From Deltaproteobacteria bacterium (GTDB lineage Bacteria > Myxococcota_A > Polyangia > JAAYKL01), in contig JAFGWT010000327.1 of assembly GCA_016937015.1 (NCBI GenBank), positions 1-64,000 of the forward strand: a stretch of 64,000 nucleotides of DNA, written 5' to 3'. Shown here in pieces: positions 6,589 to 37,529 of the stretch. A model generated the notes under the pieces. It worked only from the letters and a program-made list of their open reading frames with translations, was not told the DNA's origin and ran no database searches. Positions within the stretch are counted from its first letter, which is position 1; every line of letters begins with the position of its first letter. The translations under genes and the position numbers were made by a program.

Positions 6589-8108
6589 CTAAAACAATAA
6601 TCGGAGCACACCGGCAGTTCCACCAGCATCGACAGCAGCACACCCACATCCATCCTGCGCACTGCTGTTTGCACCCGTAATCTCTGCATCCACTGCCAGG
6701 TCCGTATCCTGCTCCGGTTCCACCGCAGCCTCGTGCCATTCGTATGCCCCCACATCAACGCCACTGCCCTGCGGTCTCAAAATGCGATCCAAATCCAGTT
6801 CCGGCGCGTATTCACTCAGACCGGCATCAACGGCTGCACTTTGTGGCAGTATATGAAAATCGAATCCGGACATATCCACAAACAGCGCAGATGGGTCATC
6901 TATAATTATGTTTCCCAAATTTTCGAGCGTATCCACGCCACTTATGGAAGTGGCAAGGTTGTTGGCAACGACGCAATTTTCTGGCGGTGTGCCGTCCTTG
7001 TGGTCGGCAATCATAATCCACGGTGGCCCAGGTTCTTCAGCATTGGGATCAAGTACCGTATTATTCACGATGCGGCAATTTCGAGCACCGTAGAGGGAGA
7101 TGCCATGCCAGTGGTCGGTATAAATCACATTGTTCTCCACCACCCAGTCTTCGAACATACCGTCAAAACAGCCAATCCCCTGAAGCGTCCCCCGAAAAGG
7201 CTGATTGGGATCCTCGTAATTAATAATGGTATTGCCCCTTAACACGATTCCGCGCACCGTTCCGGTTCCAACGCCGTCATCCCCCACAGACCAGGACTGA
7301 AATCCGTCATCATGGTTCTCATTTACGTCATAACAGTTTTTAACCGTGTTATACGCAAACAGGGTGTAATCCCCAAGGCCCCGCATCCCGTCTCCGGCAA
7401 AATTTTCGACTGTATTGCCAACCACCGTTGAATGCGTCGCCCCAACACTGATTCCAAAATTAACGTTTCTCAGATAATTGCCAATTATGGTGATTCGAGT
7501 GCCATCCGCATTGATGCCATTGGCAGGCAGGGTGTTCCAGTCATCAAGCGTCCAGCTGGACGCGTCATCAACGGACTGCAACCTGCAGCTTTCAATCACG
7601 ATGTCATGCACTGGTCCCTGCCAGTCGTGAGAATCAATATCAACCATGGTCGTCGGATCATACGATTCACCAAATGCTGACTGATATTGAGACCGCGAAT
7701 GGTCCAGTTGGCTGAAGCGCGAACAAGTACACTGGTGAAGCGCGCATCCGCACCGGCAACGGCCTGAATCGTGACCATCTCATGGTTATAGTAGCCGGTT
7801 AGATTCACTGCACCGTAGTCACCGGTCTGTAACCACAGGGTATCTCCCGCCTTAACAGGGGCGCCGCTGTTTTTAGAAATGAGCATGGCATCATCACCAG
7901 GTGGCAAAGCATCCCACCCCTGCGACTCAATCAGGTTATCGTCAAGCACCTGTTGCAAAGACAACCACGGATTTGAAGCACTGCCATCTCCAGCTGCACT
8001 GCCGTTCACCGGATCCACATAAAAATCTGATGCCCATACCCTGCACGGCAGTATCAGAAAAAACGCTAAACACGTCGTCACAGGCCATTTCACTTGATAT
8101 GATGTCAT
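6589..8108 (-). pseudogene. Secreted parallel beta-helix surface protein, frameshifted
   Basis: Two overlapping frames make one protein. The upstream frame (start 8108) has a Sec signal ending near CRVWA, then SDFYVDPVNGSAAGDGSASNP, a common start of secreted right-handed beta-helix proteins. The downstream frame carries the helix proper, with repeated turns such as GNYLRNVNFGISVG, GNTVENFAGDGM, ENNVIYTDHWHGISL and NNTVLDPNAEE. The frames cross between about 7647 and 7685; a tandem AGTC unit lies exactly there and regaining one unit (+4) would restore the frame. The C-terminus has a MYXO-CTERM-like DGCGCAAV followed by a very short hydrophobic end (GVLRLLF) and no Arg cluster, so the sorting tail also looks cut. 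It may be a polysaccharide lyase or adhesin relative. A sequencing error cannot be ruled out for the frameshift. Confidence 0.75.
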
Positions 8109-8257
8109 CTACATCTCCTTAAAAATGAAGCATAATAAACACAGGCTTTATTCTAAAAGATTGCCGGGCAACATACAAACAGTCCTATTCGGAAACGGAC
8201 AATCATCCCAATGGCTGGTCATGGCAATGCTTTGGGCAGGCAGATTCGCAACGTAAC

Positions 8258-10033
8258 CTACTTTTTGTCGGGCACGGGTAATCCGTAATCTGTCTGATAG
8301 TTTTCGGTCTCGAACTCCGGTACGCCGTAGTCGGGTAACATCACATCGGTGGCGGTATCTGTGTCGGGCATGCCATAGGCAGGGACGTCTGTTTCTTCTT
8401 CAATTGGCATACCGTAATCCGCATCCGCATCGGTGTCGCTGTCAGAATAGCCCGTATCGACCGGCATGCCATATTCAATCGCGTATTCGGTATCAACTGG
8501 CATACCGTAATCCGCATCGGTAACGCTGTCTGTATCACTGTCCGAATCCGAATCCGAATCAGAATCGGAATCGGTATCTGTGTCCGAATCTGAGTCCGTA
8601 TCTGAGTCAGATGCGCCAGTGTCGAAAGGCATTGCGTATTCGGGTGAAATCACGTCGGTGTCGGGCATACCGTAGGCAGGGGTATCCGTTTCTTCGATTG
8701 GCATCCCGTAATCCGTATCCACTGGCATGCCGTAGTCCGCGTCAGAATCAGTGTCGCTATCGGTATCACTGTCAGCGTCACTATCCGCATCACTGTCCGA
8801 ATCGGAATCACTATCGGTATCCGCATCTGAGTACCCTGCACTATCCGTATCTGTTTCAGTGTCCCTGGGTGACGGCTCATCCACATCGTCACAGGCGCTC
8901 ACGCCCGCGCCCAGCAACATGGCCAGAGTGACTGCGGCCGCCTGTTTCGAAAGATACTGCCCGGTTTCCTTTTGTTCATGCAGCGTGCGATAAACACACA
9001 TGGGGTTCTCTACGCCATCCCCGGACGCCACCTTCTTCGCTGTACAGCCCCCTTTGCAGATTTCCGCCTTATCGCAGGTTCTGCAGAATCCACCCAATTC
9101 GTCGATAGTCCAGTTCCGGGTGTACGCAAACGCGCCATCCCGATGCCAGATCTCAGCCAGTGGCGTCTCCCGAATGTTTCCCTCCACAAACTCCTGACCA
9201 CGGTCGTTGTAGCCGGCCATAATCGACAGACATCCCTTGATGTTGCCGTTCGACTCTATTCCGATAACGCTCTTTCCCGCGCCGCAACCCGTAAAATGTT
9301 TCCCGTGATTCGCTTTGCGCAACAGCTTTTCGTTCGGTCCAAAATACCCAACAGAATCAGACGGGTGAACGCGAATCGGGCTTTTGCGAATGAGTTTTCC
9401 CAGCGTCTTTTCAACGCCAATCAACTGACCCGGCGACAGCAGCATATCCCTGTGATCACTCATGTTCCCCATGTCTGTCCCCAGCTGCACCTGCCACGCA
9501 TACGCGCCCTTGTCGACAATCAACTGATGAAGCGATTCCAACTCGCGCAGGTTTCTGGTGTTCAGATGTGTCAGCACAGCAAAAGGCATCCGCTCTTCCC
9601 GACACGTGTCCATGGCGGTCATCAATTGCCGAAAATGTCCAATTCTGCCGCGAATAAAATCATGGGTTTGGGCTTCGCCGCCGTCGAGACTCAACCCAAT
9701 TCCAGATAACTGCATCTTTTTTGCCAGTCGAATCGCGTCGCGGTCAAGAGAGACAGCATTGGTAATCATTCCGGCGCGAATTCCCACAGAAGTCGCCGCG
9801 TGAATAATATCCGGCCAGTCTTCCCGGCACATGGGCTCTCCCCCCGAAATCGAAATCCACTCCATTCCCAGTTTTTTTAAGTCCGAAAACATCGTGCGGA
9901 TTTCATCGATACCTAACTCATCCGCCCGTGCTTTTCCCGCCCGTGAACCGCAGTGCCTGCAACGGAGATTGCATTTTAACGTTGCCTCAAACACGCCCCG
10001 TCGGGGTATGAATTCAGATCTCTGCATCGCCAT
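8258..10033 (-). CDS. Radical SAM/SPASM enzyme fused to a lipoprotein-like Ser-Asp / Y-G-M-P repeat tail
   Basis: The start is ATG 10033, six bases after AAAGGA. Residues 1-345 are a radical SAM enzyme: the cluster motif CNLRCRHC (Cys 21, 25, 28), the SAM-binding ISGGEP, then a SPASM domain with Cys at GCGAG, GCLSI, FCRTCDKAEICKGGC and MCVYR. This architecture is typical of peptide-modifying maturases. Residues about 360-381 form a hydrophobic segment ending LLGAGVSAC, which reads as a lipoprotein signal with Cys381 although no start codon precedes it. The rest (382-591) is a duplicated acidic tail of Ser-Asp tracts carrying ten motifs of the form [D/E/A]-Y-[G/A]-[M/V/L]-P. Inference: an enzyme fused to its own ribosomally made substrate, or a membrane-anchored enzyme with a periplasmic tail. 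It is followed by the beta-helix gene on the same strand. Confidence 0.88.
   Translation of the reverse strand: MAMQRSEFIPRRGVFEATLKCNLRCRHCGSRAGKARADELGIDEIRTMFSDLKKLGMEWISISGGEPMCREDWPDIIHAATSVGIRAGMITNAVSLDRDAIRLAKKMQLSGIGLSLDGGEAQTHDFIRGRIGHFRQLMTAMDTCREERMPFAVLTHLNTRNLRELESLHQLIVDKGAYAWQVQLGTDMGNMSDHRDMLLSPGQLIGVEKTLGKLIRKSPIRVHPSDSVGYFGPNEKLLRKANHGKHFTGCGAGKSVIGIESNGNIKGCLSIMAGYNDRGQEFVEGNIRETPLAEIWHRDGAFAYTRNWTIDELGGFCRTCDKAEICKGGCTAKKVASGDGVENPMCVYRTLHEQKETGQYLSKQAAAVTLAMLLGAGVSACDDVDEPSPRDTETDTDSAGYSDADTDSDSDSDSDADSDADSDTDSDTDSDADYGMPVDTDYGMPIEETDTPAYGMPDTDVISPEYAMPFDTGASDSDTDSDSDTDTDSDSDSDSDSDSDTDSVTDADYGMPVDTEYAIEYGMPVDTGYSDSDTDADADYGMPIEEETDVPAYGMPDTDTATDVMLPDYGVPEFETENYQTDYGLPVPDKK
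8261..8890 (-). repeat. Coding repeats: duplicated Ser-Asp plus Y-G-M-P blocks
   Basis: The DNA encodes two copies of a module made of an (SD/DTD)n tract (cores about 8738-8831 and 8525-8615) followed by a series of DYGMPVDT, DYGMPIEE, AYGMPDTD units. Seven units are exact YGMP; the others are YAMP, YGVP and YGLP. The order of variants is nearly the same in both modules, so the tail seems to have arisen by one larger duplication as well as by small unit repeats. Confidence 0.85.
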
Positions 10034-12206: not shown

Positions 12207-14885
12207 TCAATCTGATGCGCCGATATTGCCGTATACAAGCCCCCTGCCGGCAGTGCTCATGTACACCCGGCCGAACACATTCGTATCCCCCTGCACAAAC
12301 TTCCCGTTGCCTGGGCCACCGTATTGATGCGCGTCGTCATTCATGCGCGCCCAGGATTCACCTTTGTCGATGGAATAATATACGCCAAGCGGATTGTCAG
12401 TCGCACCGGCCACGCCCCAGATGAAGAGCGTTTCGTAATCGGCGCCATCAGCCGCTTTGCCAATGCCCACCGCATGCGCGGAGTACACCGACGCAAAGCG
12501 CACCCATGTCTCGCCGCCATCATCTGAAAATGCCAGTCCGTTTGTACTGAAACGGCCATTCTCCGCCCAGCTTTGCGCCTGATCCAAAGGCGCCCAAATA
12601 TGCCCTTCCCTGCCTGGTACGGTTCGAATCAGACCGTTACTGGATTGCCACAATCCCTCGGCATCGTTTTGCACAGCCCCAACCGTCTCAAACGAAACCC
12701 CTTTGTCCGACGATTTTTTTAAATTTCCCTGCTGGTCCAGCAGATAAAACACATCCGCATTCACCGGGTCACAGACAATTCGCGCATATTGAGACTGCCC
12801 ATCCATCCCGGTTACGGTTGTCCAGTTAGCTCCCATATCATCGGAGCGATATACCACGTTGGCATTTTCGGGGCGATGCAGCAATACCTCACCGTCCGCT
12901 GACAGCACCACCAACCCATGAGTGCCCATGGGTTCCGGCAGCGCCGTCCAGGAGGCGGCGTTGTCATCAGAAAAATACATCACATCACTCTCAATTCCTG
13001 TGCCAGTGGAGTAATCAGTTACATGACCGGTACGTAAAAATGCGCCCGTGAGCGGCGCGTATCCCAGCGAATGGGTGGTGCCGATTTCCGGGATGTGGAC
13101 CGGGGCCGATTCGCCGATATTGGTATATACCGCGCCATCATAGTCGCCAATCGCAGTGACCAGAGGGCCACCGGGGATGCTGACGATATCAAGTGGCACC
13201 GTTTCTTCAATTCCTCTGGATTCAAACCGCCACACCGGCAGCGCGTCTTCGAGGTTGTCAGTATGAAAAACCCCATTTCCGGAAACCACCCATGCCTCGT
13301 TGGTATCAAACGGATTAAATGCGACATCACCTGCCCAATGAATGGCGTGACCGCTTATCCATGCATTTCCATTGGGATCCGCATTGGCATTGTCCGGATC
13401 ATCAGGCTCCATATATGAAAATCCGGTGGTCCAGGTTTCTCCTCCGTCCGCAGTTACATAAATACGATCGCCCCACCCTTCTGCGCCATCCGCATAACGC
13501 GTCTGACCACCATAATAATTGAGTGTGGTAACCACGATATGGTTTGTGTCTTTGGGATCCACACTGACACCGCCGAATCCATGAGATGTTCCCTGACCGC
13601 CGTTGCCCATTAACTCAGACCCGTCATCAGACATGGGTGTTAGATTCGTCCATGAATCGGACGCAATATCATAACGGTAAAACGAACCGGTGTTGATACC
13701 ATGGGGACCAGGGGCATTATTGTATGTAATATAGAGGCTGCCTTCAGCCAAAACCGCGCGGTTTGGCATCTGACCGGTTGGGCCCCCGTTGATGGTATCG
13801 AACGACGCACCGCCATCTGTACTGACATACAGATTATCACCAATCTGAGATACGCCCATATACAGCGTATCGGTGCCTCCATCAGCAGTCAGACCGCCAC
13901 TTTCGTCGAAAAACACAAAACTGATGCCATTGGTATTGACTAAATCGGCGCCGGAACTGGCACCAATGTCACTGACTTTTCGCCACGATTTTCCGGCGTC
14001 TTCGCTTTTAAACAGCCCCGCTGAGCGACTCCCGCAAAACACGATATCGGAATTATTGGGGTCCACTGCCAGCTTCTCTCCGGTCTGGCGCCCCATTCCA
14101 TTGCCATGAGCCCCCCACAGTTCAGTAACGTCCGTCACATCAAACGTTTCACCGTAATCGTCGGACCGGAGAATGGCTGTTTTTCCGTCACTGAAATACG
14201 ACGTGCCGGCGAGTATATACAGGCGTCCAGGATTGGACGGATCGAGCGCGAAACTCTCAGTGCCATACAGCCCCACATCATCCTGTGAAATCCAGTCCAT
14301 GAGAGGTATCCAAACCCCATGTGTATCATTCCATCGATAAACGCCCCCCACGTCTGTGCGGGCATACACGAGTCCTTCCACATCTTTCGACGGCAGCAAC
14401 CCCGCCACAAAACCGCCCCCATCAAAGCGAACATTTCCCCAGCCATCGGTATCCCCGGGCTCAATATCCACCGGCCCTGTATCGGTATCCGAGTCCGTAT
14501 CGCTATCCGCATCCGAATCACTGTCTGTATCCGTATCACTATCCGAATCAGAGTCAGAATCGCCATCTGTGTCACTGTCTGTATCTGTATCGGAATCACT
14601 GTCTGAGTCGCTGTCGGTGTCCGAATCACTGTCACTATCCGCGTCAGAATCGGCATCCGAATCCGAATCCCCATCGCCATCTCCATGCGAAGTCCCATCA
14701 CTGTCCGAATCGGAATCCGAGTCCGAGTCCGAATCAGAATCAGAATCAGAATCGGCATCGCCACCAATATCCCCATCAGTTGTGTCTTTGGCTTTAGATT
14801 CATCTGATGAGCAGCCGTTCAGCACGCTTAACGCCGGTATGAAACAAAGTACCCCAATCAGTATTTTCCAGTTTTTTGCAGTCAT
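12207..14885 (-). CDS. GH74-like (xyloglucanase/BNR-repeat) lipoprotein with Ser-Asp linker
   Basis: A GGAGAG ribosome site precedes ATG 14885. The signal peptide ends in a lipobox LNGC at about residue 25. Residues about 30-155 are a Ser-Asp/Thr-Asp linker. The rest begins [15 protein letters not shown] and continues [20 protein letters not shown] and LAVDPNN, which are hallmark stretches of the GH74 double beta-propeller; the Asp of ARTDVGG aligns with a catalytic Asp of GH74 endoglucanases. Further BNR-like S-D-D-G-x-x-W motifs recur ([24 protein letters not shown]). It is probably displayed on the outer surface and acts on a beta-glucan such as xyloglucan, although many GH74 homologues have unproven substrates. 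It is divergently placed from the fumarase genes. Confidence 0.85.
14475..14765 (-). repeat. Ser-Asp encoding low-complexity tract
   Basis: About 290 bases of near-hexameric repeats (minus strand GAYTCN/GATACN steps) encode D-S-D-S, D-T-D-S and D-A-D-S runs in the linker of the GH74-like lipoprotein. Similar tracts occur in the radical SAM gene, showing a shared linker type for exported proteins in this genome. Confidence 0.85.
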
Positions 14886-27453: not shown

Positions 27454-29169
27454 ATGATTAAGGGAAGACGTATTGCGTCTGGAATAATGGCATTTGGCAT
27501 TCGCAGAAAAGGTTTACCGATGCTGAAGCAATTAGATGTCGCATCGGCTAACGTGAAACAGGCACAGCAAAACACCCTGCGAGGAATTATAGAGTACGCG
27601 ACGAATACAGCATATGGAAAATCTCATGGATTTGGTTCCATTAAATCGACCAGGGATTTCACGTCTGCAGTGCCCGTCAATGACTGGGAAGCCCACAGGC
27701 CATGGGTGGAACGCCACGAAAAAGGTGAACCCAACGTGCTGTTTCCGGGAAAACCAATGTTTTATGCGACCACCAGTGGAACCACATCAGCACCTAAGCG
27801 GATACCCATTTCCAGAAAATACCACGATGAATGTTACAATGGGCTCTCAAATATCTGGCTGCACAGCATGTTTCAGCAATCGCCAGGCTTCATGGACGGC
27901 TACGACATCAGTATGGTTGGCAAGGCAATTGAAGGATATACCGATGATGGCACCTCATTTGGCTCGTTTTCAGGGCATATGAATGCATACATGCCTGATT
28001 TTATAAAGCGATTTCGGGTAATCCCCTTTGAAATACACGATATAGACGATTATCCATCAAAATATTACGCGTTGCTGCGTGTTGCCCTGGCCCATCCTAT
28101 TCGATGGATAGTGGCCGCGAACCCCAGCACGCTACTGGAATTGCACCGTTCGGCAATGACCAGCATAGAAGAAATTGTACGGGACATCCATGACGGCACT
28201 CTGAAGTCCAGCCTCCTGATTTCACCGCAAATCCGCCAGAGAATTGAAATACGACTGAAACCGTCACCAAAACGGGCGCGGCAGTTGGAAGCGCTGCTTG
28301 CAATGCATGGAGACAATCTGCGTCCAAAGCACTACTGGCCCACACTTCAAATGATCAACACCTGGAAAAGCGGGAACGCAGCGCTTTATCTGGCGCAGAC
28401 AAAGAATTTCTACCCCCCTCATACTGTTATTCGAGAATTCGGTTATCTTGCTACGGAGGCCAGAGCCGGCATAGTCCTTGATAACAATCAGGAAACCAGT
28501 ATCCTCGCTGCTCACCTGCTTTATTTCGAGTTCATCGAACGTAGCGATTTATATAACTCGCAACCAACTGTGCTGGGTGCACATGAGCTCGAAAAAGGCG
28601 GTGAATACGCGATTTTAATTACGACACCAAGCGGGCTATATCGATACAACATCAATGATATTCTCAGGGTCGAAGATTTTTACGGCACATTTCCCATGGT
28701 CCGTTTTGTTCAGAAAGGAAGTGGTGTTACGAGTCTGACAGGCGAAAAACTGTATGAGTCTCAGTATCTGGATGCATTTGCGGAAGCGGCGGCGTCACTC
28801 AGGCTTCAGACAGTATTTCATGCGGCATTTGCGGATCTTGAGGAATCGATGTATCACTGCTTTGTGGAACTCGCAGCTGCTGAAAATATCAACGCAGTGC
28901 CAACCGACGAACTCGCCAGTCGACTGGACAAGACACTGCAGACAAAGAATCCGGAATATGCGGCAAAACGAAAATCCAATCGCCTGCGTCCACTGAAAAT
29001 ACATTTGCTGCGGACAAATGCGTTTACTGAATACAAACTTCACCAACTGTCACAGGGCCAGCGTGAAGGCCAATTCAAACTGACCCATCTTCAACAAAAC
29101 AATGACCAGCTAAAACTGTTCCAATCTTTAAGTATTGACCATTTTTATTCCAGTGGAGGCGCATTATGA
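27454..29169 (+). CDS. GH3 auxin-responsive-promoter family acyl-amide synthetase
   Basis: The start follows GGAGAG. The 571-residue protein belongs to the GH3/ANL-like adenylating enzymes: the ATP-binding loop ATTSGTTSAPKRIPIS lies at residues about 107-122, the acyl-binding region has GYTDDGTSFGSFSG, and LTGEKLYESQ lies near residue 430. In plants the family joins amino acids to acyl acids by ATP-dependent adenylation. The bacterial versions are often encoded with natural-product genes and their substrates are mostly unproven. Here the stop overlaps the PKS start (ATGA), so the two are translated together. Inference: it amidates the PKS product with an amino acid or amine, or activates a starter acid. 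No clear promoter was found in the AT-rich 185 bases upstream. Confidence 0.87.
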   Translation: MIKGRRIASGIMAFGIRRKGLPMLKQLDVASANVKQAQQNTLRGIIEYATNTAYGKSHGFGSIKSTRDFTSAVPVNDWEAHRPWVERHEKGEPNVLFPGKPMFYATTSGTTSAPKRIPISRKYHDECYNGLSNIWLHSMFQQSPGFMDGYDISMVGKAIEGYTDDGTSFGSFSGHMNAYMPDFIKRFRVIPFEIHDIDDYPSKYYALLRVALAHPIRWIVAANPSTLLELHRSAMTSIEEIVRDIHDGTLKSSLLISPQIRQRIEIRLKPSPKRARQLEALLAMHGDNLRPKHYWPTLQMINTWKSGNAALYLAQTKNFYPPHTVIREFGYLATEARAGIVLDNNQETSILAAHLLYFEFIERSDLYNSQPTVLGAHELEKGGEYAILITTPSGLYRYNINDILRVEDFYGTFPMVRFVQKGSGVTSLTGEKLYESQYLDAFAEAAASLRLQTVFHAAFADLEESMYHCFVELAAAENINAVPTDELASRLDKTLQTKNPEYAAKRKSNRLRPLKIHLLRTNAFTEYKLHQLSQGQREGQFKLTHLQQNNDQLKLFQSLSIDHFYSSGGAL

Positions 29170-32100
29170 AAACGTTAAAGGGCGAGAAAAGAACGCCCAT
29201 CGCAATTTGCGGCATAGGTTGCCATTTTCCCGGCGAAGCAGATACACCTGAACGGTTCTGGAATATGCTCAAGGATGGCACCGATGCCATAGGACCCGTT
29301 CCCCGAGACAGATGGAATTCAGATCTCCTCTACGATCCCAATCACAAAACGCGAGGAAAAATCCACATTAAGGAAGGCGGATTCATCAGCAGAGTAGATG
29401 AATTCGACGCTTCTTTTTTTGGCATTTCGCCCCACGAGGCGCACAGCATGGATCCATCGCATCGACTTCTTTTGGAGCACACATTTATGGCATTCGAGGA
29501 TGCCGGCGAACCACTCAATCGTATCGAAGGCGAGCGAGTCGGCGTATTTGTGGGGACCTCCTCATCCGAGTATGGCGGCATCATGCAAAACTTCACCGAG
29601 CGGGCCAGTATCAATTCACATACAAACGCCGGCAGTTCTCCAGCAATCACAGCCAATCGAATATCGTACGTGTTTGATTTTCACGGCCCAAGCTTCGCGG
29701 TGGACACCGCCTGCTCTGCCAGCCTTTTGGCCGCGCACCTCGCATGTCGCAGCATCTGGAATGGCGAGTCGAGCGCCGCTGTAGTGGCAGGCGTCAACCT
29801 GATGCTGAAACCGGAACTCCACATTGGTTTCAGCACGGCAGGATTTCTTTCTCCCGATGCCCGTTCAAAGTCATTCGATGCCAGCGCCAACGGTTATGTA
29901 CGCAGTGAAGGGGTTGGTGTCCTATACCTCAAGCCCCTCGACCAGGCCATTGCAGACGGCAATAGAATTTACGCAACGATCATTGGAAGTGCCACCAACG
30001 AGGATGGACGCACCAACGGTATCGCCTTGCCTAATCCGGATGCACAGATTGATGTCATCACCATGGCATATGCCGATGCAGGCATTAAACCGGAAATGGT
30101 GACATTAGTGGAGGCCCACGGCACCGGCACCGCGGCGGGTGATCCAATTGAGTGCAACAGCATTGGTGCTGTTATCGGAAAAGACCGAAATGACACCTGC
30201 TTAATCGGATCAGTGAAAAGCAATATCGGACATACAGAATTGGCATCCGGGAGTGCCGGACTTATTAAACTTGCACTGTCGTTGTATCATCGGGAAGCCC
30301 CCCCGGTTGTTCACTTCAAGACACCCAATCCCAAAGTTGACTTCAACAGGCTGAAGATTCAGGTGGTAGATCGCCACATGCCGATTCCTTCGAGAAATGG
30401 TATCATATACGCGGGTATCAACTCTTTTGGTTTTGGTGGAGCGAATGTGCATTTGGTAATGCAAAGCTATTCCACTCCACATACCGGTACAACTGTCACC
30501 CATGAATCGTTTCCTCTTCCTCTCCTGCTGTCGGCAAGAAACGACAGTGCACTGCAGCAATTGGCGGGGGCATACAAACGCATCCTGGAAGCGGACAATG
30601 TTTCCCTGCCTGAATTGTCAAAACAAGCCGCAACCCGGCGTTCTCAACTGGAGATTCGTGCAGCGGTTGCCGCCACAGACAGGAGTGACGCCATTGCCAA
30701 ACTGTCGGATATGGAGAAGGGTATTTCACACCCTCATGTAATAAAAGAGCGACCCACATTACGACAGGCTGATAAAATAGCTTTCGTTTTTTCCGGTCAG
30801 GGCCCCCAGTGGTATGCCATGGGAAGGGAACTGCTGAAAACGGATGAAACGTTCCGCGACACTATAGAGGAAGTCAACGGCCACCTCAAATCGCTCGGAT
30901 GGCTTGAACGCGACAATAGCTCCCTTCTTGAGGAGTTGCAACTGGACGAAGCCGAAAGTCGAATAGATAAGACTGAAATTGTACAACCCGCGATCTTCGC
31001 ACTTCAGGTTGGTCTCGCCCGTATCTGGAAACGGCTGGGCGTGGAACCCGCCATGGTAACAGGGCATTCCATTGGCGAAGTTGCAGCTGCTTATGTCAGC
31101 GGCGCCATCTCAATGGCAGACGCGGTAAAGGTCGTATTCTGGCGAAGTCGATGTCAGGCAAACGCAGCAGGCCGCGGCCGCATGATGGCCGCCGGTCTTA
31201 CTGTGAATGATGCCCAACCATACCTGTCCAGATTTGATGGAAAAATAGATATAGCTGCGGTTAATGGTGCGGCAATGCTGACACTTGCGGGAGAAAGTGA
31301 GGCACTTGAGGTACTCTCTCAAATGCTCAAAGACGACAAAATATTCTGTCGCTTTTTAGTAGTGGATGTACCCTTTCACAGCTATCTGCTCGATGATGTG
31401 GCGGAACAATTTAAATCCCGTGCACCGCAATTTAAAGGAGCGGACACGCAAATCCCATACTATTCCACCGTTTTTGGTTGCGCAACAGCGGGCGCCAAAA
31501 TTAATCGTGAGTATTGGGCCAGAAATATCAGGGACACTGTCCAGTTTTATCCCACGATTGAAAAGATGATCGACGATGGCGCAACGGTTTTCGTGGAAAT
31601 CGGCCCGCACCCCATCTTATCCCATGGCATTCGTGAAGCGCTTGATGCAAAGCGTGTGAGCGGTGTTATCGTGCCCTCCCTTCGACGGAAAGACTCAGAA
31701 AAACTGACGATGACACGATCGCTTGCTGCACTGCATGTCAATGGGGTGTCATTGGACTGGAAATATATTTTCAGCCGTGTGGCAGACAAAAATATTCAAT
31801 TGCCTTTGTACCCCTGGCAAAGGGAGAAATTCTGGATCGAATCAAATGTAGCCAGAGAGGCACGCCTTTCCAATCACATACATCATCATCTTCGCCGAAA
31901 AACAGTGGCCGCCGACAATACCACGGATATTATATGGGAAGTGGAACTGGATGCCCGGACCGCACCCTATATTCTGGACCATCGGGTTCAGGGCCCAGTG
32001 GTCTACCCCGGTGCGGGTCATGTTGATCTTGCTGTTGCAGCAGGCATGGCTTCGTTTAATGACGCATTTGGCTTCATTGAAGATATGGAGTTTATGTCTC

Positions 32101-35100
32101 CGCTTTTCCTGAAAGAAGACGGCGCGCCCAATGAAGTTCAGATTCACATTGATACCGATGATGGGCAATTCACCATCGCGTCGAGAGATTCCCAAAATCA
32201 CAGCAGCGAATGGACCTTGCATTCGAAAGGCAAACTTAATTATATAGGCGACAGGTTTGACAGCACACCAGTAACGCTGGCTGTGTTGAAATCCCGAATA
32301 GAAGAGCCCGTCGAACTGGCGCCTCTCTTTGAGACACTGAGCAACGGCGGACTTGACCTTGGCGATACGTTTAGAGGAATTGAAGCATTGAAACGTCGCG
32401 ACAACGAGGCGCTTGGCAAAATTCGAATACATCCGTCCATAAAGCCGTTCATGAATCAATTCAAATTGCACCCGGCACTGCTTGATGCGTCATTCCAATC
32501 CGCATTTGGCATTATCGAGGACCATCACAATATGGGTGTGTACATTCCAAAAAAAATTGGCAGAATAAAATTTTATACCCAACCGGACGGAGATTTTATC
32601 TATTCCTATGCCAGTGCGAAAAAGCATGAAGCGGAATTTATACTTGTCGACATATGGGTGTTCAGTGAAAACGGAACACTAGTAGCCGAAATTCAAAATT
32701 TCATGGGGCAATATTTGAAGGGCTCCAGAGGTGAAGTGGACGGAGAAATAGACAATCTGTTCTTCAGCCCCCATCTTCGACGTTCATTCAGACCGTCTCA
32801 ACTATTGAACCGCCATTCGGAAAAAACGTTGACGCCTCTCACTGATGTAAGACAGGCTGCACTGGCTGAAATCGCACGGGTCCAGTCGGACGCGGTATTC
32901 AGTCCTTTCTTTGACGAGTTGGGGCCCGCAATGGATGACCTGGCGATTGGATATATCGTTCGCGCATTTGAGAAAATGGGCGCTCCCATTGTCCCTGGTC
33001 GCAGATACGATATAGAGGGATTGCCCACCAAACTGAAAATTGCACAAAGGCATATACGACTCTTCAAATATATCCTTCAGCAGCTCGAAGAACGAAAAAT
33101 TTTTATAGCGGATGGCACCACATATACTGTTGCATCAAAAATCACACTGCCGCAACCCGAGGCCATTTTGCGCCGGGCAACAGCTGACCTTAAGCCGTTC
33201 TCATCCGAATTGAATTTCTTCAAGCCAGTTGGAGAATCAATAGCAGAGGTGCTGACAGGGTCGCTGGATCCCACTGAGGTGCTTTTTGCCGAATCCAAAT
33301 GGAACGACACAATTGAATATTATTCGTCCGCATATTCCATGAACAAGTATAACCGCATTGCCGCGGCCGCAATTGAATCCCTTGTTCGTGACGCTGGAAA
33401 CAGATCCATTCGAATTATTGAAATTGGAGGCGGCACCGGCGGTGTTACACAGGCTATTTTACCGCTGCTATCCCAGAAAAACGCATCATATGTTTTCACC
33501 GATATTTCTCCGGCATTTATGGAACAGGCTCAGAAACGGTTCGCCGATTTTGATTTTATTTCCTACAAAACCTTGAACATCGAAGACCCAGTTGAGGCAC
33601 AGGGGCAAAGCGAGCACAGCTACGATTTGGTGATTGCAGCGAACGCTCTTCATGCAACCAAAAATATTCAGGACACACTTAAAAACGTACACGGCTTACT
33701 CGCCAACAATGGCGTATTGTGCTTACTCGAGGCAACCACAGTGCCGTTTTATGTAAACATAGCATTCGGCATGACTGAAGGGTGGTGGAGATATAATGAT
33801 GATGTCAGAATGTCCCACTGCACCATGAAGCGCAACGACTGGATAAACGTTCTTGAACAAACCGGTTTTGCAGACGCAGTCGCTATGACAGATGTGGAGG
33901 ATGGTGACTTTCCGCAGCAGAGTGTGGTCATTGCCAGAGCGGCTGTTCAGCGTCCTAAAATCGAGCCATCCCCAATGCCAGCCAAGTGGATTATTTTTGG
34001 CGATAGCAAGGGAACAGCGACTCAACTCATTTCGCGAATTAAGAATCGCGGTGATGAGTGGACGCTGGTGACATCGGGAAGCATCGCTAAAAGCGACGCC
34101 AAACGAGAGCTGTTCCACCTTCCCGGTGATTTGTCATCGATTAGGCATCTGTTCGACGGTATCAAAGAGACTCGTGTCGAAATTGTATTTGCCAGGCCAA
34201 TCGATATTGGTGACATTGAAGATACCGAGCATTTCTTAACAATACGCAATGAAGTTCTGGTTGAGATGACCGCACTCTCCCGCATTCTAATTGAAAAAGG
34301 TCTAAGAAATGTCACCTTATCCATTATTACGGAGGGCGTTCACAATGCCATGCCGAACATAACGCAATCGGCGATATGGGGAATTGGTCGCGTTATGTTT
34401 AACGAGCTTTCAGACAATCGCATCCGTTTGATAGATATTGCAACTACAGACCTTCAACACATTGAACAGCTATGGGATGAACTGGAGAATGGAGACAGCA
34501 TTGACGAAGAAGTAATACTTGGCAGTGGTCAGCGTTTCTCGATTCGATTGGAGCCCCTCTCTCCACAAAAACGCCGAAGCAACTCATTGAAACGAGAAAA
34601 TATCACTGGACTTGGAATTAGACTTAACCCCAACGAAAACGGGATTATTCAACAGGTATATTTTGCTCCATATGATGGCGCGCCCCTTTCTCGGGACGAA
34701 GTAATCATTGAAGTCCATCACGCAGGGCTGAATTTCAGAGATGTTATGGTCGCTGGCGGTGCATTGCCCAAAGACGCCATTGATGGTGGCATTTTTGGCA
34801 ACGGTCTGGGACTGGAATGCGCCGGTATAGTACTCGATACGGGAAGTCATGTTTCCCATGTTAAAGCAGGTGATCGTGTAATGGCCATCTCCGCCAACGC
34901 CATTTCCGGCCGAGCAGTCGCAAAATCGTCTTTTGTACGGCGGATACCACAAAATGTTACAATGGAAATGGCTGCGTCGATTCCGATGGCGGCATTGACG
35001 GCGTACACAGCTCTGGTGCATCTGGGAAACATCCAGCCAGGCAGCAGGGTACTAATCCACGCAGGTGCAGGTGGGGTAGGAATGTATGCGATTCATTTTG

Positions 35101-37529
35101 CCCTATCCGCCGGTGCCACGGTTTTCGCAACTGCATCCCCCGAGAAACACGGACTTCTAAGGGAAATCGGAGTGCATTATATATACAACTCTCGTTCGAC
35201 CGCCTACTACAGCGAAATTATGGCCGACACAAAAGGTGCGGGTATCAATGTGGTACTGAACTCCCTTTCCGGCAGTCATATTACCCAGAGTCTCAAGCTG
35301 CTTTCACCAATGGGCAGATTTATCGAAATTGGTAAAAAAGATCTATACGCCGACAAACGAATTGGCATGCGTCTGCTCGCTGATAATATATCTTATCACG
35401 CACTTGATATTGACCGACTTTTGTCTCAGGCGCCGCAGTTGATTTCAACGTTATTTAGTGACGCAGTTGATTTTCTCGAAAAAAACGGATGGCCAAACAT
35501 CCCGGTTGTTCATATGCCATTTGAAAACGTTGCGAACGCCTTAACTCAAATGGCTGCCGGAAATCACGTGGGCAAAATCATTTTGGACAGTGGAATTGTT
35601 TCGGTACATCCCAAAGATAGCCTGATACTCAGAGATGATGCAACATATCTTATCGCAGGCGGAACCAGAGGACTCGGTCTTGCAACAGCAGAATTTTTAA
35701 CGCAAAAAGGAGCACGCCATATTGCCCTGTTTTCTCGAAGCGGCCTCCACGGCCAGGAAGAAATTGACCGAGTGAAAGCGATGCAGGCGAATGGTATACA
35801 GGTAGAGACGTTCGCGGTTGATATTTGTGATCAGGATGCTGTGAACGACCTTGTGCATAAAGTTCATAATATCGGCAGACCGTTGGCGGGAATTGTCCAA
35901 TCCACGCTGGTACTGGAAGATGCATTGCTGCATCAGATGACACCGGATCAAATGGTGGCCCCCTTGCGTCCAAAAATTGAAGGCACATGGAATCTGCATC
36001 GCGCCACCCAAAATATTTCGTTGGATTTCTTCATTTCATTTTCCTCTGTGTCTTCGCTGTATGGATTGCCCGGTCAGGGTAATTATGCTGCTGCCAACCG
36101 GTTTCTGGATGACTTCTGCAGATACCGACGCGCATTGGGACTGACGGCATCGACGATAAATCTGGGGCCATTGGGGGAAACCGGGTTTGTTTCGAGAGAG
36201 GAAAAAATTCACGATTACCTTGACCAAAGTGGCTGGCTGCCGCTCTCAAACAGCGAGGTGTTTCGAGCGCTCGAACGCGTCATACTGGAAGGCCATACCC
36301 AGACAGGTGTATTTCGACTGGACTGGGCCAAATTGAACAACGCATTTCCGGCCCTCGCTGCGTCTCCAAGGTACCAAGCTGTTCGCAAACAGCTTGCAAT
36401 TCAAGCTGATAAAGGAGATGCGAGTAACATTAAACAGCAACTGACGTCAGCATCTGAAAAGGAAAGGCGCACACTTATTCATCAGATTCTCAAAGAAGCA
36501 ATGGAAAAAATACTTGGCATCGACAGGAACAAACTCGATTTTAAAACGCCAATAAACCGAATGGGAATGGATTCACTGATGTCCAATCAACTTCGCAGTG
36601 TTTTGACGCAGCAAACAGGCGTCGAGTTTTCACTGATGCAAATCATGCAGGGCCCAACACTAACGGACCTGGCCACCGAAATAGAGCATGGACTCAAACC
36701 GGTCACCACAGATAAAAATACTAAAAAGACGCCCAAAACCGTATGGTCCAGACCCATCATCCGGCGTCGCAAGGCATCCGTTCGCCTGTTTACCTTGCCG
36801 TATCTTGGGGCGGGCGCGTCGATATTTTCTGACTGGCGTTTATCGCCCGAAATAGAAGTATGCCCCATTCAGCTGCCAGGCCGTGAAGAACGCAGCAACG
36901 AGCCCCCAATAAGCGTCGGCGAGAATCTGATAAGCGAAATGGCTGCCGGGATTGCACCACTGCTTGACAAACCTTTTGCCCTGTATGGCCACAGCTATGG
37001 CGGAAATCTGGCGATGAGCCTGGCATCATATCTGGATGGCAACCTCGGCAAACGGGCGGAGCATGTGTTCATTGGTGCGGCAATTCCCCCTGGTGTGGAG
37101 AATCCGCTTGAAAATGAGTTCAGGTTAACGGATACCGAAGACGCGCTGAAGCTTTCTGAAAACAGAATGAGGGCACTGCTTGAAAGAATTGGAACACCGC
37201 GAGAGCTGCTGGAAGATGCCCCCAGATTTGCAACCATGCTTCCAGCGTTGCGCGCTGATTTGGGCATTACCAGACAACGGCTGTTTACCAAAGACCATGT
37301 GCTGAAATCGCCAATTACTGCAATTGCAGGAACATCAGACCACCTTTATTCAGAGGAACTTATCGCTCACTGGCAGACTTTCACCACGCAGTTTGCTCTT
37401 CATACCGTTGAGGGGGGACATCTGTTTTTACATGAGCCAGTTGCCAAATCCCAGGTGTTGCAGCACATAAATGAAACGCTTGCTCCCTCATTCGCCGCAA
37501 ATAGCGGATTGCCCAGGAAAACCGCATAA
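29166..37529 (+). CDS. Highly reducing type I polyketide synthase, KS-AT-DH-MT-ER-KR-ACP-TE
   Basis: A 2787-residue single-module enzyme with GTGGAGGC before the ATG. KS (about 10-430): active Cys in VDTACSAS, His in EAHGTGT and SNIGHTE. AT (about 535-830): GHSIGE near 635 and VPFHS, suggesting malonyl-CoA. DH (about 910-1190): DHRVQGPVVYP and HPALLDASF. C-methyltransferase (about 1370-1530): EIGGGTGG. ER (about 1810-2130): HAGAGGVG. KR (about 2155-2350): AGGTRGLG and catalytic Tyr in GQGNYAAAN. ACP: GMDSLMS, Ser near 2469. TE (about 2530-2770): GHSYGG, type II thioesterase-like. All key residues look intact, so a fully reduced, alpha-methylated chain is predicted, perhaps built iteratively as in fungal reducing synthases. 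It forms a coupled pair with the GH3 enzyme. Confidence 0.93.
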   Translation: MKTLKGEKRTPIAICGIGCHFPGEADTPERFWNMLKDGTDAIGPVPRDRWNSDLLYDPNHKTRGKIHIKEGGFISRVDEFDASFFGISPHEAHSMDPSHRLLLEHTFMAFEDAGEPLNRIEGERVGVFVGTSSSEYGGIMQNFTERASINSHTNAGSSPAITANRISYVFDFHGPSFAVDTACSASLLAAHLACRSIWNGESSAAVVAGVNLMLKPELHIGFSTAGFLSPDARSKSFDASANGYVRSEGVGVLYLKPLDQAIADGNRIYATIIGSATNEDGRTNGIALPNPDAQIDVITMAYADAGIKPEMVTLVEAHGTGTAAGDPIECNSIGAVIGKDRNDTCLIGSVKSNIGHTELASGSAGLIKLALSLYHREAPPVVHFKTPNPKVDFNRLKIQVVDRHMPIPSRNGIIYAGINSFGFGGANVHLVMQSYSTPHTGTTVTHESFPLPLLLSARNDSALQQLAGAYKRILEADNVSLPELSKQAATRRSQLEIRAAVAATDRSDAIAKLSDMEKGISHPHVIKERPTLRQADKIAFVFSGQGPQWYAMGRELLKTDETFRDTIEEVNGHLKSLGWLERDNSSLLEELQLDEAESRIDKTEIVQPAIFALQVGLARIWKRLGVEPAMVTGHSIGEVAAAYVSGAISMADAVKVVFWRSRCQANAAGRGRMMAAGLTVNDAQPYLSRFDGKIDIAAVNGAAMLTLAGESEALEVLSQMLKDDKIFCRFLVVDVPFHSYLLDDVAEQFKSRAPQFKGADTQIPYYSTVFGCATAGAKINREYWARNIRDTVQFYPTIEKMIDDGATVFVEIGPHPILSHGIREALDAKRVSGVIVPSLRRKDSEKLTMTRSLAALHVNGVSLDWKYIFSRVADKNIQLPLYPWQREKFWIESNVAREARLSNHIHHHLRRKTVAADNTTDIIWEVELDARTAPYILDHRVQGPVVYPGAGHVDLAVAAGMASFNDAFGFIEDMEFMSPLFLKEDGAPNEVQIHIDTDDGQFTIASRDSQNHSSEWTLHSKGKLNYIGDRFDSTPVTLAVLKSRIEEPVELAPLFETLSNGGLDLGDTFRGIEALKRRDNEALGKIRIHPSIKPFMNQFKLHPALLDASFQSAFGIIEDHHNMGVYIPKKIGRIKFYTQPDGDFIYSYASAKKHEAEFILVDIWVFSENGTLVAEIQNFMGQYLKGSRGEVDGEIDNLFFSPHLRRSFRPSQLLNRHSEKTLTPLTDVRQAALAEIARVQSDAVFSPFFDELGPAMDDLAIGYIVRAFEKMGAPIVPGRRYDIEGLPTKLKIAQRHIRLFKYILQQLEERKIFIADGTTYTVASKITLPQPEAILRRATADLKPFSSELNFFKPVGESIAEVLTGSLDPTEVLFAESKWNDTIEYYSSAYSMNKYNRIAAAAIESLVRDAGNRSIRIIEIGGGTGGVTQAILPLLSQKNASYVFTDISPAFMEQAQKRFADFDFISYKTLNIEDPVEAQGQSEHSYDLVIAANALHATKNIQDTLKNVHGLLANNGVLCLLEATTVPFYVNIAFGMTEGWWRYNDDVRMSHCTMKRNDWINVLEQTGFADAVAMTDVEDGDFPQQSVVIARAAVQRPKIEPSPMPAKWIIFGDSKGTATQLISRIKNRGDEWTLVTSGSIAKSDAKRELFHLPGDLSSIRHLFDGIKETRVEIVFARPIDIGDIEDTEHFLTIRNEVLVEMTALSRILIEKGLRNVTLSIITEGVHNAMPNITQSAIWGIGRVMFNELSDNRIRLIDIATTDLQHIEQLWDELENGDSIDEEVILGSGQRFSIRLEPLSPQKRRSNSLKRENITGLGIRLNPNENGIIQQVYFAPYDGAPLSRDEVIIEVHHAGLNFRDVMVAGGALPKDAIDGGIFGNGLGLECAGIVLDTGSHVSHVKAGDRVMAISANAISGRAVAKSSFVRRIPQNVTMEMAASIPMAALTAYTALVHLGNIQPGSRVLIHAGAGGVGMYAIHFALSAGATVFATASPEKHGLLREIGVHYIYNSRSTAYYSEIMADTKGAGINVVLNSLSGSHITQSLKLLSPMGRFIEIGKKDLYADKRIGMRLLADNISYHALDIDRLLSQAPQLISTLFSDAVDFLEKNGWPNIPVVHMPFENVANALTQMAAGNHVGKIILDSGIVSVHPKDSLILRDDATYLIAGGTRGLGLATAEFLTQKGARHIALFSRSGLHGQEEIDRVKAMQANGIQVETFAVDICDQDAVNDLVHKVHNIGRPLAGIVQSTLVLEDALLHQMTPDQMVAPLRPKIEGTWNLHRATQNISLDFFISFSSVSSLYGLPGQGNYAAANRFLDDFCRYRRALGLTASTINLGPLGETGFVSREEKIHDYLDQSGWLPLSNSEVFRALERVILEGHTQTGVFRLDWAKLNNAFPALAASPRYQAVRKQLAIQADKGDASNIKQQLTSASEKERRTLIHQILKEAMEKILGIDRNKLDFKTPINRMGMDSLMSNQLRSVLTQQTGVEFSLMQIMQGPTLTDLATEIEHGLKPVTTDKNTKKTPKTVWSRPIIRRRKASVRLFTLPYLGAGASIFSDWRLSPEIEVCPIQLPGREERSNEPPISVGENLISEMAAGIAPLLDKPFALYGHSYGGNLAMSLASYLDGNLGKRAEHVFIGAAIPPGVENPLENEFRLTDTEDALKLSENRMRALLERIGTPRELLEDAPRFATMLPALRADLGITRQRLFTKDHVLKSPITAIAGTSDHLYSEELIAHWQTFTTQFALHTVEGGHLFLHEPVAKSQVLQHINETLAPSFAANSGLPRKTA

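Follow-up and report, generated by a model that had tools for sequence, protein, structure and literature searches.

The window, by which we mean the whole stretch of 64,000 nucleotides that was analyzed (contig JAFGWT010000327.1 of Deltaproteobacteria bacterium assembly GCA_016937015.1), carries on its minus strand an intact open reading frame of 591 aa at 8258-10033, starting with the ATG at 10033 and preceded by the ribosome-binding-like sequence AAAGG. Its product joins a radical SAM/SPASM enzyme to a lipoprotein-like tail. The features of the gene are as follows.

8258..10033 (-), whole fusion gene, 591 aa: radical SAM/SPASM enzyme, hydrophobic segment, lipobox Cys, and an acidic tail bearing ten units of the form X-Y-G-x-P
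9521..9982 (-), radical SAM domain, residues 18-171, CxxxCxxC = C21/C25/C28 (Pfam PF04055, 74.2 bits)
8996..9286 (-), SPASM domain with full Cys set, residues 250-346: C250, C268, C317, C320, C326, C330, C346 (Pfam PF13186 and translation; conserved in L009)
8894..8944 (-), hydrophobic segment resembling a signal sequence, residues ~364-380 (17-residue Kyte-Doolittle maximum 1.92)
8891..8893 (-), lipobox Cys C381 (GVSAC), Cys in 30/30 non-redundant fusions
8261..8890 (-), acidic tail of 210 residues in which Ser/Asp-Thr/Asp tracts surround the motif units
8720..8737 (-), unit 1, DYGMPV
8696..8713 (-), unit 2, DYGMPI
8660..8677 (-), unit 3, AYGMPD
8624..8641 (-), unit 4, EYAMPF (Ala for Gly)
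8495..8512 (-), unit 5, DYGMPV
8459..8476 (-), unit 6, EYGMPV
8402..8419 (-), unit 7, DYGMPI
8363..8380 (-), unit 8, AYGMPD
8315..8332 (-), unit 9, DYGVPE
8273..8290 (-), unit 10, DYGLPV

Both marks of the radical SAM/SPASM family, the CxxxCxxC motif and the seven-Cys SPASM set, are present, and Pfam and translation agree with the original prediction on this point. The Pfam SPASM match covers residues 250-321, the cysteines are spaced C250-x12-G-x4-C268 and C317-x2-C320-x5-C326-x3-C330, then C346, and all radical SAM and SPASM cysteines recur in the closest relative, L009. The tail had been described as an acidic stretch of 210 residues in which [DEA]-Y-[GA]-[MVL]-P recurs ten times between Ser-Asp tracts, and this too proved exact. 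The units span residues 433-587, nine being X-Y-G and one X-Y-A, on the same chain as the enzyme, and X is mostly Asp or Glu. Synonymous codons vary among the units, which are thus not only recent copies of DNA, and shuffled versions of the tail contain on average 0.9 units against the ten observed (p<=0.001).

A hydrophobic stretch followed by a lipobox Cys, the sequence hallmark of bacterial lipoproteins, is found at GVSAC381, internally and not at the N-terminus. This signal had been described as lacking a start codon of its own; the hydrophobic segment ending in VSAC381 is indeed there, but an in-frame ATG (Met345, 9001-8999) lies ahead of it. If Met345 were an internal start, the locus would yield two products, an enzyme and a separate lipoprotein. 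We rejected this scarcely credible option: Met345 is an unlikely start, since no convincing ribosome-binding site was found at this ATG and the position is occupied by D, L, or Y in several homologues; further, it falls within the NPxC motif of the last SPASM cysteine.

Elsewhere in the window, a right-handed beta-helix gene downstream of the fusion (6589-8108, minus strand) is broken into a pair of ORFs that overlap and are read in different frames. The beta-helix gene beside the L009 fusion (6811-8376, plus strand) is a single intact ORF of 521 aa, so the window copy contains a frameshift or an assembly error. The 2787-aa ORF at 29166-37526 (plus strand) begins like a type I polyketide synthase.

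Fusions in the phylum and Ser-Asp lipoproteins of the same genome

When 59 relatives and 379 genomes belonging to the phylum were searched, 32 fusions emerged, 30 after removal of near-duplicates. To be included, a SPASM domain had to be followed by a hydrophobic stretch and a long tail, without regard to the motif, so that the presence of the stretch in 32/32 is partly a selection criterion. Their occurrence across many genomes rules out an assembly or annotation artefact, and the fusion ORF is real, neither chance nor artefact. A Cys follows the hydrophobic stretch in 30/30 non-redundant fusions and is preceded by G, A, or S in 28/30; where several cysteines lay close by, one with G/A/S at -1 was preferred. 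Apart from this Cys and the motif, the tails are mutually dissimilar, consisting of Ser-Asp tracts, Pro-Asp linkers, or Cys-rich modules (for instance, VCCECEYGIIPEEV). Nevertheless, 162 of the 222 tail tyrosines in the 32 fusions lie within Y-[GASNM]-x(1-3)-P, versus a total of 18.5 motifs in shuffled tails; 135 of these motif tyrosines are directly followed by Gly, and conservation extends beyond Tyr-Gly to the Pro and the hydrophobic residue. Units of the Y-G-x-P type are kept in 29/32 fusions, each above its own shuffles, and are missing in three that retain the enzyme (L014, L017, and L054). Loss of the motif alongside a retained enzyme had been named in advance as a refutation, and these three cases count partly against the prediction. 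The fusions are related, and their motif counts are not independent events.

The genome under study contains a second, paralogous fusion (contig C137, 52% identical) with Y-G-I-Q-x-P units, and a third fusion, with ten units, occurs in L009, a GenBank Deltaproteobacteria MAG apparently representing a genome of the same genus (G002). In the tree, the window fusion belongs to a group of 14 fusions that has full support. Fusions are intermixed with split pairs, which requires at least three changes by parsimony, although a single fusion clade is not rejected by the AU test (p 0.082). Clustering of neighbor genes revealed no recurrent neighbor at the fusion loci, and thus the fusions seem to be genomically self-contained. 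At L079 (G009:C375) and L090 (G006:C63), two radical SAM-lipoprotein fusions stand in tandem, and three tail-less relatives are likewise arranged in tandem. No account of such fusions turned up in our literature search, whose coverage did not include the main splicease survey (Scott et al. 2022, Chem), and an earlier description is possible.

As a control, we took roughly 29 further proteins with Ser-Asp tracts from the same genome, which are not all of its lipoproteins. Of the 29 counted, 28 have a lipobox Cys 8-33 residues ahead of the tract, and in 27 that Cys is preceded by G, A, or S; the -1 residue and spacing of C381 match these proteins. The motif Y-G-[MIVLF]-P is absent from all ~29, which rules it out as a general property of Ser-Asp tails. 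Since the controls share the lipobox and the tract without the motif, the window tail looks like an ordinary lipoprotein of this organism, save for its internal signal sequence and its fusion-specific motif. A search of the tail against its own genome matched only the window itself. The same tail without a radical SAM partner, which would have contradicted the prediction, was therefore not encountered in this genome. Ser-Asp tracts directly behind a lipobox recur among its lipoproteins, for example, in L096-L115 and at 12207-14885 of the window.

Split enzyme and lipoprotein genes

In several genomes, homologues are split into adjacent radical SAM and lipoprotein genes with the same motif, the arrangement that had been proposed as a check. 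Beside stand-alone enzymes of the same clade lie separate lipobox proteins that carry the motif or something close to it (L139, L140, L136, L147, L150, L152, L149, and L151). Eight N-terminal leaders of these lipobox proteins share an invariant Cys besides the lipobox Cys. In the sister clade, which contains the Nostoc TIGR04103 protein, the enzymes are flanked by lipobox proteins with zinc-ribbon-like leaders and units like MYGGPP (L145, L146, L154, and L155). Across the split versions together, the lipobox proteins show AYGVP, KYGIP, EYAAP, MYGGPP, and the like. For some stand-alone enzymes, for instance, L137, L138, L141, and L142, no motif-bearing lipobox neighbor was found within the stretch examined.

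The lipobox proteins beside stand-alone radical SAM genes at L136 (4720-5949), L147 (5190-6092), and L150 (5248-6213) consist of acidic Cys-rich repeats alternating with Y-G-I-P-type units, and the acidic Cys-rich repeat in the L150 protein is NF033662. At L155 (2672-3871), three successive zinc-ribbon-like lipobox proteins (MYGGPP/PYGVPP/VYGAP) lie upstream of a TIGR04103-like enzyme that scores 495 bits with TIGR04103 (cut-off 725).

Related maturase families and candidate chemistry

The best NCBIfam match of the fusion enzyme is TIGR04103 (244 bits, cut-off 725) and the second is TIGR03913 (239 bits, cut-off 592); neither cut-off is met. TIGR04103, to which the tyramine-excising splicease PlpX belongs, corresponds to IPR026482. 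A genuine TIGR04103 enzyme of Nostoc (853 bits), found in the plasmid collection, lies beside a Nif11 precursor that ends in ALYGLPPELF (C-terminal end SIALYGLPPELF). In the same collection, TIGR03913-type enzymes adjoin DUF1843 peptides with Y-G, Y-A, or Y-M, such as MLYGGAM, KPYGVAI, and RPYGPAM. PMC11002830 describes PlpX as a SPASM enzyme of IPR026482 with the partner PlpY. According to PMC10533398, PlpXY excises tyramine at X-Y-G without needing a leader, and tags of the type PIRPLYGLPI or PIRPGYGLPI are used with it, not all being accepted in every protein context. PMC10373908 attributes protease inhibition to the beta-residues of spliced products. A small ORF after the Nostoc enzyme, taken as PlpY-like, had no homologue in the genome under study in a search that lacked a positive control.

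Because of these nearest families, their X-Y-G neighbors, and the PlpXY literature, tyramine excision is the most likely chemistry at the units of the window tail. This is inferred by analogy, and the same chemistry is not assured, given scores so far below the cut-offs. The original prediction had taken the motif for a multi-site target with Tyr, Met, or Pro as the modified residue; of these, the nearest curated families point to Tyr.

Pairs of radical SAM enzymes and lipoproteins with Tyr-Gly-x-Pro, mentioned in the same prediction as separate genes of Bacteroidota, do exist. On the Phocaeicola plasmid L156, a genuine member of TIGR04133 (617 bits against a cut-off of 425) precedes a lipoprotein that is a genuine member of TIGR04134 (138.8 bits against a cut-off of 39.8) and has EYGTP directly behind the lipobox. 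The fusion enzyme reaches only 124 bits with TIGR04133, below its cut-off, and TIGR04134 has no match in the genome under study or in the window tail.

Proposed function and comparison with known systems

We suggest that the protein probably modifies its own surface-displayed tail, the modification itself being inferred. More specifically, a splicease-like radical SAM/SPASM maturase would modify the X-Y-G-x-P sites of its own lipoprotein tail, which would then be exported and released at C381. We assign this reading a probability of about 0.6, with cis action, chemistry, export, and cleavage inferred from sequence alone. The general interpretation offered at the outset is supported by fused and split homologues, motif conservation, and the L156 pair. 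The enzyme half (residues 1 to ~350) would act on the units while the tail is still in the cytosol; the hydrophobic segment would then serve as an internal lipoprotein signal sequence, taking the tail across the inner membrane, and signal peptidase II would cut before a lipidated Cys381. The enzyme would stay behind in the cell, and the envelope would receive an acidic tail, anchored by lipid and modified at as many as ten sites. Split relatives have a short leader with a conserved Cys at the place that the enzyme takes in the fusion, where it thus appears to stand in for that leader. The fuller version, in which the enzyme is both leader and catalyst, excises tyramine in cis at about ten sites, and sends a poly-ketoamide lipoprotein to the surface while its own half is cut off and kept inside, is held only tentatively and falls a little short of even odds. 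The probable, though speculative, use is to trap proteases multivalently or to form a reactive polymer on the surface. It counts against the proposed explanation that the Fe-S enzyme, being cytosolic, would have to do its work before the chain it belongs to is exported, or while this happens, and also that some units have Tyr-Ala and X is mostly Asp or Glu. An AlphaFold2 run on two sequences (mean pLDDT 40) was of too low a quality to place the tail in the active site.

The enzyme could instead modify its own tail at the same units by another chemistry, such as Tyr cross-linking, epimerization, or C-H functionalization, in a branch that diverged from true spliceases. SPASM enzymes are chemically varied, the score of the fusion enzyme falls far short of the cut-offs for TIGR04103 and TIGR03913, and conservation covers Pro and the hydrophobic residue in addition to Tyr-Gly. 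Moreover, the TIGR04133/TIGR04134 pair is equally motif-bearing and only ~28% identical, and we know of no described chemistry for it. We still regard this option as unlikely, though not to be dismissed, as genuine TIGR04103 and TIGR03913-type enzymes adjoin X-Y-[G/A] substrates and the PlpX tag itself reads LYGLP.

Modification in trans, by another copy, the C137 paralogue, or a different enzyme, or a fusion enzyme that mainly serves other lipoproteins, would suit both the presence of a paralogous fusion with Y-G-I-Q-x-P units and the stand-alone enzymes, which must act in trans. It is made improbable by the 29/32 fusions that carry their own motif, and no separate protein with the Y-G-M-P units of the window was found in the same genome. 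Very doubtful is the notion that the units are structural or adhesive spacer repeats, never modified, and that the enzyme has an unrelated target: Ser-Asp tails do resemble surface spacers (the MSCRAMM matches reflect low complexity) and three fusions keep the enzyme without the motif, but the motif persists across otherwise unrelated tails, recurs in separate partner genes, and is absent from the other Ser-Asp-tract proteins.

If self-modification of the tail is correct, a single gene would encode all that modification and display require, with enzyme, leader function, signal sequence, and multi-site substrate. Splicease-type backbone editing would extend from small peptides to surface lipoproteins, a compact tool for ketoamide-bearing proteins would be at hand, and such pairs, fused or split, could be common in the phylum. 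The coexistence of an Fe-S enzyme with an exported tail in one chain would become a testable question.

Among known systems, the PlpX/PlpXY spliceotides are alike in the radical SAM/SPASM enzyme, the best NCBIfam match, and X-Y-G followed by hydrophobic-Pro, as in Nostoc ALYGLPP and the published PIRPLYGLPI tag. The window fusion differs in reaching 244 of 725 bits, in having a fused lipoprotein tail as substrate, and in the absence of a detected PlpY homologue. It also has no Nif11 or nitrile-hydratase-like leader, the tail following the enzyme and the hydrophobic segment. The TIGR03913 GDL-motif peptide maturase with DUF1843 is the second-best match and has substrates with X-Y-[G/A/M], whereas these are short separate peptides without a lipobox and the window enzyme scores 239 of 592 bits. 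TIGR04133/TIGR04134 likewise combines a radical SAM/SPASM enzyme with a lipoprotein bearing Y-G-x-P just after the lipobox Cys, but it has two genes and one unit instead of ten, and the window enzyme attains 124 of 425 bits. Finally, the split pairs of the same phylum share the enzyme clade, or its sister, and Y-G-x-P after the lipobox, and differ in that the substrate has its own gene and a leader that bears a Cys or resembles a zinc ribbon.
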